Positions 17,852 to 64,000 of a stretch of 64,000 bases of DNA are shown here, piece after piece (the stretch's first letter is position 1; each line of letters starts with the position of its first letter). Location: the NCBI RefSeq assembly GCF_040436365.1, contig NZ_AP026369.1:248001-312000 (forward strand), in the 5' to 3' direction. This stretch comes from Hydrogenimonas sp. SS33. Lineage in GTDB: Bacteria; Campylobacterota; Campylobacteria; Campylobacterales; Hydrogenimonadaceae. The translations under genes were made by a program, and so were the position numbers. Under the pieces are notes generated by a model. It saw nothing but the letters and a program-made list of their open reading frames with translations, did no database searches and was not told where the DNA came from.

Positions 17852-18472
17852 ATGAACTTTACAGAAGTAGTCAAAAAAATTTTAGAAAATCAGCCAATGA
17901 CTCCACAGCAAATAAGAGATGAAATCAAAAAAAAGTATCCTGAATTCTACGGAACAGAATCACATCAAAGAAACTTTGAAAAAGGGCATTACAATAGTAT
18001 CGATCATGCAGTATTGGCACAAATTTATAGTATTATTAAAACTAACGACAATTTTTTAATTGATAAATCAACAAAACCATTAACTGTAATTATTGATAAA
18101 CCAGAGCCTATTATTAATGATAAGGGTTATGTTATAGAAGATTATGAGAAAGAAGAAGGCATAGTTTATGTTTTGAAAACAAATACTTTTACAAAAGATA
18201 ATCTTGAAATAATCAAAATTGGATTTACTACACAAGATGTTGAAACAAGAATAAACCAACTATATACAACCGGTGTTCCATTTAAATTTACATTATTTAA
18301 ATCATATCCAACAAAAAACTATATTGAGCTTGAAAAAGCACTACATAAATTACTGGAACCATTTAAACTAAATAATACAAGAGAATTTTTTACAGAAGAA
18401 GCGTTAGAATATATTGATGAGATAGTAAATATACATAGTAAAATATTAAACAAAAAAATGGATGACAAATAA
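17852..18472 (+). CDS. HARE-HTH-like plus T5orf172/GIY-YIG-like protein, AT-rich foreign gene
   Basis: This 206 aa gene is strikingly AT-rich and uses codons such as ATA, AAA and TTA unlike its neighbours, so recent transfer is likely. Residues 1-75 (VVKKILENQPMTPQQIRDEIKKKYPEFYGTE onward, then a second helix bundle) resemble HARE-HTH domains found on restriction and chromatin proteins. Residues 104-195 resemble T5orf172 (MUG113), a GIY-YIG nuclease relative: IVYVL at 104-108, KIGFTT at 122-127, Arg133, then a helical EKALHKLL and REFF at 177-180. Such proteins are often phage or defence associated. It separates hemA from proS. Domain calls are by eye. Confidence 0.8.
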   Translation: MNFTEVVKKILENQPMTPQQIRDEIKKKYPEFYGTESHQRNFEKGHYNSIDHAVLAQIYSIIKTNDNFLIDKSTKPLTVIIDKPEPIINDKGYVIEDYEKEEGIVYVLKTNTFTKDNLEIIKIGFTTQDVETRINQLYTTGVPFKFTLFKSYPTKNYIELEKALHKLLEPFKLNNTREFFTEEALEYIDEIVNIHSKILNKKMDDK

Positions 18473-18563
18473 TAGGAGAGAAATATTTGATACTACGGTC
18501 AAATATTCTCAACTTAACCATTATTGAGGTATCACTATATTGGTGAAATGAAAAAACCGATCT

Positions 18564-60402: not shown

Positions 60403-62610
60403 ATGCAGGATATCGCCGAAGTGTTGAAAGCGCACAAGCTTTCAATGGAAGATTACGAGCATATCAAAGAGATTCTCGGACGCGAGCCCAATCTGGTGGA
60501 GATCGGCATCTTCAGCGCCATGTGGAGCGAGCACTGCAGCTACAAATCGAGCAAGAAGTATCTGCGCGGTTTCCCCACCGAGGCGCCGTGGGTGATCCAG
60601 GGGCCGGGCGAGAACGCCGGTGTCATCGACATAGGCGACGGCATGGCGGCCGTCTTCAAGATGGAGAGCCACAACCACCCCAGTTTCATCGAACCCTACC
60701 AGGGCGCGGCGACGGGCGTGGGCGGCATTTTGCGCGACGTCTTCACGATGGGGGCGCGACCCGTGGCCAACCTGAACGCCCTGCGTTTCGGACGGGTACG
60801 CGGCGACGACGAATCGGCGGCCTATCAGCGCCACCTGGTACGCGGCGTCGTGGCGGGCATCGGCGGTTACGGCAACTGCATGGGCGTCCCCACGGTCGGC
60901 GGCGAAACCTTCTTCGACGACAGTTACAACGGCAACATCCTGGTCAACGCCTTTACGTTGGGCATCGCCAAAGCGGACGAGATCTTCTACGGCAAGGCCG
61001 AAGGCATCGGCAACCCGGTCATCTACGTCGGCTCCAAGACGGGCCGCGACGGCCTGGGCGGCGCGGTGATGAGCTCCGACAGCTTCACCGAAGAGTCCAA
61101 GAGCCTGCGCCCCACCGTACAGGTGGGTGACCCCTTCACCGAAAAGCTGCTGCTGGAAGCTTGCCTGGAGCTTTTTAAAACCGACTACGTCGTCGGCATC
61201 CAGGACATGGGGGCGGCGGGGCTGACTTCCAGCTCCTTCGAAATGGCGGGCCGCAGCGGCAGCGGCATGCGGATGGATCTGGACAAAGTGCCCATGCGCG
61301 AAGAGGGGATGACCCCCTACGAACTGATGCTCAGCGAATCGCAGGAGCGGATGCTCATCTGCGCCCGCAAGGGGACGGAAGAGAAGATTATCGAGATTTT
61401 TAAGAAGTGGGACCTCGACTGCGCCGTCATCGGCGAAGTGACCGACACGGGCCGCATGGAGCTTTTCTGGCACGGCGAAAAAGTCGCCGACGTGCCCGTC
61501 GACCCGGTCAGCGAAGAGGCGCCGGTGCTCGACCGCCCCGTCAAGCGCCCCGCCTATCTGGATGAAATCGCCAGCATCGGCATCGACCGGTACGATCTAC
61601 CCTGCAACCAGGAAGCCTTCGAAACCCTCGTCAAATCGATCGAAGTGGTCGACAAGGGGTGGGTCTACGAGCAGTACGACTCGATGGTGCAGACCAACAC
61701 CATCAAAAAAGGGGGCGACCTGGACGGCTCGGTCATCCGTGTCAAGGAGAACGGCCGGGCCATCGCCATGAGCAGCGACTGCAACCCCCGCTACTGCTAC
61801 ATCGACCCCAAAGGGGGCGCCGCGGCGGCGGTGATGGAGTCGGGACGCAACGTGGCCATGACGGGGGCGCGACCCCTGGCCATCACCGACTGCCTCAACT
61901 ACGGCAACCCCGAAAACCCCGAAGTGATGTGGCAGTTCGCCCAGGGGTGTGAAGGCATCAAAGAAGCCTGCGCGAAGCTGAATACCCCCGTTACCGGCGG
62001 CAACGTCTCCCTCTACAACGAAACCAACGGCGTCAGTGTCTTCCCCACCCCCACCATCGGCATGGTGGGACTCAACGATTCACAGGAAAAGGTGCTTCCC
62101 TCCTGTTTTCAGGAAGAGGGCGACGCCCTGCTGCTGGTGGGCGAAACCAAAAAGGAGTTCGGCGGCAGCCTCTACATGAAAGAGCTCTTCAAAACCGTCG
62201 GCGGCAGACTGCCTGACATCGACTACGACAAAGAGCTGGCGCTGTGGGACCTGGTCATCGAAGCCAACAAAAAAGGGCTGCTCAAAGCGGCAAAAGACCT
62301 CAATGTCGGCGGCCTCGCCATCGCTGTAGCGAAAATGGCCGTCGTCGGCGGCAAAGGTGCCGAAGTGGATGCCGACCTGGGAGAAAACGTCAACATCTTC
62401 AGCGAAAGCTTCTCCCGCGCGCTTCTTGAAGTGGCGCCCGAAAACGTCGAAGCCGTCACACAGATGGCCAAAGAGCGCGGCCTCGCATGCCAAAACGTCG
62501 GCACCGTCGGCGGAAACCGCGTGAAAATCAACGACGTCCAAATGCCGATGTCACAGCTGGACGACCTCTACTACCACACCTTCAAACGCATCATCGAACA
62601 GGATATCTGA
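60403..62610 (+). CDS. purL: phosphoribosylformylglycinamidine synthase subunit PurL
   Basis: PurL is the ATP-dependent synthetase subunit of FGAM synthase, working with PurQ and PurS (45.2-46.1 kb). The protein has 735 aa, the small-PurL form. [15 protein letters not shown] is the N-terminal signature; [36 protein letters not shown] binds nucleotide. [22 protein letters not shown] and GGNVSLYNE are further motifs. It starts at ATG 60403 after AAGGACCCCT. The stop is only 22 bp from the convergent integron integrase frame. Confidence 0.97.
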
Positions 62611-62632: not shown

Positions 62633-63604
62633 TCACATATCAAGCGGACTCATCACTTTCGCCCGATTCATCTCGGCAACAACATGGGTATAGATCATTG
62701 TGGTTTCTACGCTTTTATGCCCCAGTAGCTCCTGGATCGAACGCAAGTCGATGCCGCTTTGCAGCAGATGGGTGGCATAGGAGTGGCGGAATATGTGGGA
62801 AGTGATCCGCTTGTTGATTTTGGTTTTTTGAGCTGCCTGCCGAATATTTCTTCCAAGTGTCGCTTCCAATATATGATGTCTGCGGACGATGCCGCTTCTA
62901 GGATCGCGTGAAACCTTTCTCATGGGAAAAAGATACTGCCATTTCGTTTCAAATTTCGCATTTGGATATTTACGATCCAGACGATGAGGCAGTTCCACGC
63001 TTCCGAATCCTTGTTTCAGGTCTTCTTGATGAATCGCCCTCACATTCTCGATCTGGATTTTGAGTTCTTCTTTGATCGATAACGGCAAAGGCAATGTACG
63101 GTCTTTTTGACTCTTGCTCTCCCAAAAATAGATGGTGTTAAAGCCGAAATCGACATCTTTTATGCGCAGATTGAGTACTTCACTCATACGCAATCCGCAT
63201 CCATACATGAGTTTGACAATCAGGCGATAGATACCGTCAAGATTGGCGATCACGCTCTGGACCTCTTCACGAGTCAATACCACAGGAATGTGTTTGCGCT
63301 CTTTGGCTCTCAATGCCTGAATGTTCCAATCACTTATATCGATACCGAGGACCTCCCTATAGAGAAAAAGCAGCGCGCTGAAAGCCTGGTTTTATGTCGT
63401 AGGTGAAACGTTCTGCTCTGCCGCCAACCAACTGAGAAACGACTCGATTTCTGCTTTTCCCATATGAATAGGATGCTTTTTATCATGGAAAAAAATGTAG
63501 CGTTTGACCCCCCCGATGTAAGAGCGTTCCGTCTTGAGGCTGTAATGTTTGAGTCGTATTTTGTCACGAACCATATCGAGAAGCTTCTTTTTGATCGGTG
63601 CCAT
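62633..63604 (-). pseudogene. intI: integron integrase (IntI-type tyrosine recombinase) with one in-frame stop codon
   Basis: One frame of 324 codons runs from ATG 63604 (AGGAGGT directly upstream) to TGA 62633, interrupted only by TAA at codon 71 (63394-63392), between SPTT and [16 protein letters not shown] where IntI proteins usually have Gln. A CAA-to-TAA change would explain it. The catalytic set is intact: Arg139 (GCGLRMSE), His270 and Arg273 (HIFRHSY), His296 and Tyr305 (TMIYTHV). The IntI-specific insertion before box [15 protein letters not shown]...TKWQYLFP (about 206-227), and [11 protein letters not shown] identify it as an integron integrase, not a phage one. It is either a recent pseudogene, a restart product or a sequence error. 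Confidence 0.9.
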
Positions 63605-63876
63605 TTCTACCTCCTGATAGCAGTATATTTTGTCATGCTATTGAATTTCATGGTCATTATCACGACAAAATGTGTTGATAACGGCTGAAAAATCAATAGC
63701 AAGACATTATGAATACGGAGAAATATTAGTGAAAAATGGTAAAATGGACCCAGAATATATCAATTTCTAAATTTATTTGAAATAGCACAACATTTTTTGT
63801 GTTTTGTTATTCGCAGTGGAACGGAAGATTAGGTATAATTTTTTCACACAATAAATAGTTAGCTCAAGGGGAATAC
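63605..63876 (+). other. candidate attI/Pc region between intI and first cassette
   Basis: This 272 bp AT-rich stretch lies where integrons carry attI and the cassette promoter. GTTAGCT at 63858-63864 fits the recombination core GTTRRRY at six of seven positions. TATAAT at 63834-63839 could be the -10 of a Pc-type promoter reading into the cassette; its -35 is unclear. An inverted repeat ATTTTGTC (63627-63634)/GACAAAAT (63664-63671) lies next to the intI start and may be regulatory. No second core site could be placed with certainty. Confidence 0.5.
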
Positions 63877-64000
63877 GTGACGTCATTCGTAGCGTTTTGT
63901 GAAAACCCCAAGTGTGGAGCCGTCTTTGAGGTTCCTATTCTTGTTGGTGGTCCTGGTAACGCCACTATCCACATGACAAATACGAGAGCAGGGCCATGCC
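63877..64000 (+). CDS. start of possible first cassette gene, zinc-ribbon-like protein, truncated by window
   Basis: The frame starts at GTG 63877 with AAGGGGA 5 nt upstream and runs open for 41 codons to the window end. It begins TSFVAFCENPKCGAVFEVP, and GPC comes at the end. The CxxxxC spacing and later Cys suggest a small metal-binding or zinc-ribbon protein. It begins 13 nt after the candidate GTTAGCT core site, as expected for a promoterless cassette gene. I do not recognise the family with certainty. Confidence 0.6.
   Translation, partial: MTSFVAFCENPKCGAVFEVPILVGGPGNATIHMTNTRAGPC

Follow-up and report, generated by a model that had tools for sequence, protein, structure and literature searches.

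The window analysed in this work is a stretch of 64,000 nucleotides (bases 248001-312000) from the genome of Hydrogenimonas sp. SS33 (order Campylobacterales), a single contig of 2,254,567 bases designated G000. At its right edge, beyond the chromosomal gene purL, lies an integrase frame (intI) carrying one stop codon, and divergent to it a block with a putative promoter (Pc) and an attI site, followed by the first part of a cassette gene. A lone cassette-like insertion is located further to the left (Table 1).

Table 1. Features of the integron edge and of the lone insertion (window positions, except where a genome position is indicated)
Feature	Position	Strand	Basis
Lone cassette-like insertion between hemA-like and proS-like genes	17852-18526	+	R2 match, Pfam; neighbours named by reading
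purL, chromosomal gene left of the integron	60403-62610	+	Open reading frame, named by reading
intI, integron integrase frame with one stop	62633-63604	-	TIGR02249 match and Pfam domains
In-frame TAA of intI, codon 71	63392-63394	-	Position invariant among the other panel members
attI-Pc block, intI leader to crossover point, about 230 bp	63629-63862	+	Two intI-less copies elsewhere
Predicted Pc, promoter-like pair TTCGCA-18 nt-TATAAT, reading toward the cassettes	63810-63839	+	Consensus scan
attI core AATAAATAGTTA, crossover expected within GTT	63850-63861	+	Core common to 27 of 32 loci
First cassette gene, 201 aa, SEC-C motif, GTG start	63877-64000, on to genome 312482	+	Open reading frame, Pfam

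The intI frame matches the integron integrase family TIGR02249 (integrase_gron) with 418.8 bits, against a cut-off of 265, over positions 1-313 of 315, and the part after the stop reaches 312.2 bits alone. The reading frame is not intact, its single TAA separating the Pfam N-terminal SAM-like domain from the Phage_integrase domain. The tyrosine recombinase positions Arg, Lys, His-x-x-Arg, His and Tyr were all located by alignment, and an AGGAGGT ribosome site precedes the ATG. Among solved structures the integron integrase 2a3v comes nearest (E 2.9e-60 over 221 residues), named IntI4 in its PDB entry and presumably the Vibrio cholerae enzyme; the next structure is a XerC-like enzyme (E 5.2e-27). 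The alignment with 2a3v passes with one gap through the stretch before His-x-x-Arg, which we take to be the integron-type extra region. A preliminary description of this DNA had proposed an IntI-type integrase with all catalytic residues, a good ribosome site and one TAA at codon 71, and each of these was recovered. Among 557 genome relatives obtained with an integrase profile, the best 80 show 65-84% identity, 79 of them carrying Campylobacterota-type names and one just 'bacterium'.

The same description spoke of a single lesion with no other decay. The frame has one TAA. The 29 other sequences of the panel share 110 invariant columns, of which the window intI keeps 107; its three departures are the TAA of codon 71, glycine for tryptophan at residue 32 and serine for threonine at residue 58. 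Judged from these columns, the damage to intI is light, and a recent inactivation, also proposed earlier, is plausible but unproved.

The block upstream of intI contains GTTAGCT at 63858-63864, where a core-like site had been announced. We scored it with R1, a sequence-only attI model built from 27 sites and used with a threshold of E<=0.001; the window attI obtained 36.8 bits (E 1.2e-9), being itself one of the 27 training sites. A consensus scan of the region gave 6 promoter-like pairs for 2.7 expected, and the -10 region of the predicted Pc is kept in the attI alignment. Both attI and the predicted Pc are divergent to intI. The new gene foreseen on the strand opposite to intI corresponds to the GTG-started frame of Table 1, and an attC-like hairpin comes after it at genome positions 312484-312543, that is 484-543 nt beyond the window end.

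A further attC of the array was recognised at L004:11417-11483 (57.0 bits, E 8.1e-11) by R2, an attC model built from 37 sites in intI-linked arrays, and the array stops before purH (named by reading), which starts at genome position 318357. From the first attC to position 316815 there are genes without recognised attC, so that not all of this stretch need consist of cassettes. One part of the array (L004:7929-10557), again without recognised attC, contains the gene of a 692-aa protein with repeats, which by eye resembles a lipoprotein, and a frame in reverse orientation that reads like a DUF1501-type fragment; the purL-purH array therefore seems mixed with other insertions. A core at G000:316815, exact over 13 nt, scored 10.7 bits with R1 (E 0.16) and was not counted. 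Same-strand cassettes with attC, by which a chromosomal integron is recognised, lie behind the window attI. The chromosomal integron edge and the cassette array suspected to continue right of the window are borne out by the divergent promoter-attI block and by attC-bearing cassettes between purL and purH, the first attC lying well within the next few kb. On its sequence the element is classified as an integron with a pseudogene integrase, the functional integrase being contradicted by the stop codon.

Two more attI blocks of about 230 bp were found in the same genome, at 381791-382021 and 387903-388150 (R1 scores of 51.4 and 31.6 bits), with 68-69% identity to the block in the window. No integrase-family match lies beside either of them, and genes and attC come after both. 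The left end of one of these orphan blocks matches the intI leader of the linked copy, 25 nt before the start codon. A transposase-like gene (L006:6465-7454; Pfam rve, integrase core domain) is part of the first cassette that follows the orphan attI at genome position 382008. After the other orphan attI, the first long frame encodes a retron-type reverse transcriptase, RT-Toprim_I-C (L006:12312-14075, genome 388312-390075; PADLOC, 614.4 bits), and inverted repeats between attI and this gene could, by eye, be an msr-msd region.

The stop was seen in one assembly. It might be a sequencing or assembly error in an integron that is complete and active. The light damage described above would fit such an error, as would the fact that 34 of the 41 intI matches listed for the phylum have no internal stop. 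Against it, the tryptophan invariant elsewhere is a glycine in the window intI, and two other R1-positive attI of this genome have no integrase match beside them. The sister genomes, in which a comparison of intI had been recommended, weigh in the same direction. At E<=1e-40, intI was found in 3 of 18 genomes of the genus and is damaged in all three, by the TAA in G000, by truncation at about residue 201 in G015 and by a TAG together with a truncation in G009. Real decay is therefore likelier than a sequencing error, and we regard an error as quite unlikely.

The attI core is conserved across the phylum. Upstream of intI, 27 of 32 Campylobacterota loci contain the sequence AATAAATAGTT(A/G), at a distance of 139-348 nt from where the integrase match starts. 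In four of the other five loci the upstream DNA is 265 nt long or shorter, and the fifth, L041, which is outside the R1 training set, scored 37.2 bits with R1. As read from the alignment, a -10-like box (TATAAT and variants) stands ahead of the core, frequently at a distance of 8 nt and in the window type at 10 nt, and many loci also have an ACAT-ATGT inverted pair before the core. Around the best 80 of the 557 relatives, the core (with A or T at the second base) was present in 44 of 56 testable loci, at 242-301 nt, after 24 of the 80 had been set aside for too short upstream DNA. Of the 12 testable loci without the core, 6 gave an R1 match at E<=0.001, which is partial in one case. These counts and those of the 32 loci are not independent, some contigs being common to both. 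In the 500-nt flanks on the other side of intI, the core occurred in 0 of 79 cases. As to integrases outside the phylum, R1 gave no match at E<=0.01 in the two intI records considered (Kovacikia and Pseudoalteromonas), and the core was absent from the 3 kb upstream of both; two records are too few for a claim of phylum specificity.

An AT-rich motif with a -10 box could also be an ordinary promoter resembling attI by chance. As a pattern, the bare 13-nt core is indeed at chance level when mismatches are allowed, with 18 matches against 17 for the reversed control in the window genome (two mismatches) and 50 against 44 in 18 genomes (one mismatch), so that the evidence lies in its place and in its conserved context. 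With R1, by contrast, scores reach 59.9 bits over 87 positions. At least 287 sites, training sites included, were found in 109 of 397 genomes of the phylum (at most 11 candidates being scored per genome), and 288 of the 397 have no match at E<=0.001. Together with the absence of the core from the 79 control flanks and with the strand-specific link to attC described below, this makes chance resemblance extremely improbable.

We then compared the distributions of intI, attI and attC in the 397 genomes. At E<=1e-60, with 5 candidates scored per genome, intI was present in 39 genomes and 18 of 68 genera (30 of the 41 listed matches came with loci); at this threshold fragments such as the split intI of G364 count as absent. 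R1 sites were found in 37 of these 39. The earlier remark that integrons are uncommon in this phylum is supported neither by these counts of intI nor by the attI element, which occurs in more than a hundred genomes. A further 72 genomes carry R1 sites without intI, and 30 of them, with 76 sites, are single contigs, so that broken assemblies do not account for the absence of the integrase.

R2 identified attC in 107 of the 397 genomes. Among the 358 without intI, attC was present in 57 of the 72 with attI versus 13 of the 286 without, and 15 of the 72 had no R2 match. Integrase-free arrays might arise mainly by off-target insertion of cassettes at places other than attI. The 13 genomes with attC and neither intI nor an R1 site are what such insertion would leave, as is the lone cassette of the window. 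The latter encodes a 206-aa T5orf172/MUG113 protein (PF10544, PF13455) followed by a degenerate attC-like site (18460-18526, R2 40.0 bits, E 1.8e-6); no attI was seen at this insertion, which is possibly an off-target one. As 57 of the 70 intI-less genomes with attC carry the attI element, however, loss of intI from an existing platform is favoured over off-target insertion. The position of attC, same-strand and downstream of attI, rarely upstream and not opposite, likewise argues against off-target insertion as the main source, which we find improbable.

This position was established on 40 stretches around orphan attI sites, picked from the listed rows of the R1 census and from matches to the bare-core pattern; 35 of the stretches, including that of G017, belong to single-contig genomes and 5 to other genomes. 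The set comprises 44 R1 sites above 24 bits, two matches below 20 bits being left out. R2 matches below 36 bits were also left out (11, namely nine opposite-strand matches to a hairpin already matched more strongly and two further same-strand sites), as were 5 matches in the window, L004, L006 and L097. Same-strand attC of at least 36 bits were found within 9 kb downstream of 28 of the 44 orphan attI, 26 of them within 3 kb; an opposite-strand attC was found for 0 of the 44. Within 3 kb upstream, same-strand attC occurred for 3 of the 44, and two of these sit behind another attI of the same stretch. For 16 of the 44, R2 found no attC within 9 kb downstream. All 26 intervals within 3 kb contain a frame of at least 50 codons between attI and attC, which in many cases fills most of the interval; both are observations made without a control set.

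The proteins of these 26 first cassettes showed no defence enrichment of cargo, again without a control set. Between 2 and 4 matched PADLOC-DB, through four models with one member each, three of which are versions of one candidate, and at most 6 gave Pfam matches at E<=1e-5.

Remains of the integrase were found beside some of the orphan sites. Fragments of intI, divergently oriented as is normal and sharing up to 96.6% identity with integrases of the panel, lie within 350 nt of 8 of the 44 orphan attI; in one of these cases the match is weak (13 residues, E 0.005). No such scar was found within this distance of the other 36. Given the 16 sites without attC and the 36 without a scar, some of the orphans could have another origin or not be attI.

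One such origin would be a mobile or duplicated promoter-attI module, spreading alone or by the action of IntI between attI and other sites, so that the dispersed sites would not be remnants of platforms. Copies within a genome can in fact be very alike (91% over 379 nt in G305, including the start of intI, 88% over 295 nt in G200, 87% over 229 nt in G000 and 86% over 212 nt in G002). Several of these matches end a few nucleotides from the crossover point and others run on. Tandem attI occur within one stretch in L152 and L182, and G020 and G179 have 9 attI copies each. The likeness of the copies also points to gene conversion or to duplicated platforms, preceding the loss of intI or acting alongside it. 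The divergent intI fragments next to 8 of the 44 orphans speak against a spreading module, and so do two loci of the genus at which orthologous sites can be compared.

The first is the purL locus. In G001, G003, G008 and G016 purH follows purL at once or nearly, with no integron, and in G009 one other gene precedes purH. G000 has the stopped intI and attI, and G002 only the last intI codons (IASPLDM-stop versus VMSPLDM-stop in G000) and then attI, so the deleted form retains the end of the integrase. Neither purH nor the core was found downstream of purL in the available DNA of G004, G011, G013, G014, G015 and G017; the sequence of G006 ends at this locus, and a purL match is absent in four genomes. 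At the second locus, nspC, attI stands without a trace of intI in G000, with intI residues 5-25 in G015 and with residues 42-76 in G017. No core was found beside nspC in the available DNA, in some cases short, of the other 15 genomes of the genus. These unlike leftovers suggest that different deletions have hit the same platform. Two related species with different pieces of intI at one locus, and none in the window genome, are hard to reconcile with a promoter-attI module moving as such, and we judge this alternative somewhat unlikely.

At L096:582-1335 of G015 the truncated intI runs into an apparent short C-terminal piece of purL, and purL is also present on another contig, G015:C47; the platform looks as though it had been relocated together with a remnant of its former neighbour.

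The arrays also share sequences within genomes. We counted 42 repeat matches between arrays of the same genome, among them the attI block and a mini-cassette; other repeats measure, for example, 642 nt in G216, 1336 nt in G356 and 233 nt in G149. The mini-cassette is a recurrent element of about 155 nt without an open reading frame (L171:5367-5523, L148:3083-3237, L161:8848-9004, L185:3084-3238 and others), present in 24 copies in 16 of 84 stretches, 7 of them directly behind an attI core, with 72-100% BLAST identity to a single reference copy. A hairpin and a three-armed part make up the fold of eleven copies, which shows covariation, both sides being changed in 15 of 52 pairs; 0 of 500 shuffles reached that value, the structure having been derived from the same alignment. 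The element could be a multi-armed attC, an RNA or both. An Rfam search with E values up to 0.5 of three stretches bearing it gave three matches, none at the mini-cassette, and three stretches of the window genome gave nothing at gathering scores. A pattern screen for attC (RYYYAAC...GTTRRRY with folding) also matches coding DNA and controls; its use was confined to the selection of training sites and the reading of single cases, including the first attC behind the window.

Taken together, the window edge is very probably a chromosomal integron platform in a phylum in which intI is lost recurrently and the promoter-attI block and cassettes stay. The recombination chemistry, the activity of Pc and the loss of IntI activity we infer as follows. 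As in other integrons, IntI would join the attC of an incoming cassette to the attI core (AATAAATA-GTTA), and Pc would transcribe the newest cassette. A stop in intI, its truncation or its deletion would leave the promoter-attI block and the cassettes in place, and the resulting integrase-free arrays would still have a recognisable attI at their start. The window would represent an early stage of this process. With a nonsense codon after 70 residues, its platform should no longer capture cassettes by itself, and Pc could still express the first cassette. Selection on cassette expression may be what keeps the promoter-attI blocks.

The platform might alternatively be part of a distributed integron, in which one type of attI provides several docking sites per chromosome, loaded in trans by a single or transient integrase. 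We consider this unlikely. If it were true, the promoter-attI blocks and not intI would be the lasting part of the system, and loading in trans would have left its trace in the shared, structured mini-cassette without an open frame that follows several attI and attC sites.

An integron with a broken integrase is of a known, ordinary kind. Campylobacterota are among the phyla listed with integrons (PMC8618304), and pseudogenes account for almost a third of all intI (PMC2426708). In Xanthomonas, intI adjoining ilvD has been inactivated repeatedly, and clusters of attC without intI occur at other loci (PMC12444791). Such sedentary integrons resemble the one described here in having intI, attI and attC cassettes, in the interruption of intI by a stop or deletion and in the persistence of the cassettes. 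As far as they are described in these sources (PMC2426708, PMC12444791), they differ in two respects, since here the attI core is nearly identical across the phylum and several attI-headed arrays are found at different loci of one chromosome. At the level of the protein, 2a3v, the closest solved relative, has no stop, whereas the window intI carries one.

The loss of an integron in Treponema (PMC3607928) is similar in that attC and cassettes remain where intI is gone. There a single loss was inferred, in one clade, and intI is transcribed toward attI; here there are several losses, intI is divergent and attI is retained. That paper also states that attI is less conserved than attC, and attI sites are elsewhere called poorly described and undetected outside class 1 (PMC9024848), so that an attI at the head of an array would go unreported by the program concerned. 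The conserved attI and the attI-headed integrase-free arrays are the new part of this work; we recognised no description of either for Campylobacterota in the literature searched, which mostly did not extend to subscription papers. This attI can serve as a marker for platforms missed by searches for intI.

A further parallel is with the clusters of attC without a nearby integrase known as CALIN (PMC9024848, PMC8618304), which have been reported in Sulfurovum and Sulfurimonas (PMC10295459); three origins have been proposed for them, among these the loss of intI (PMC8618304). Compared with the CALIN definition of at least two attC and no nearby intI, 28 of our 44 orphan sites have at least one attC and only some have two or more. 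The arrays described here are like CALIN in consisting of attC without intI, and differ in keeping attI at their head; an attI recognisable by sequence throughout the phylum allows the origin of integrase-free cassette arrays to be asked directly.
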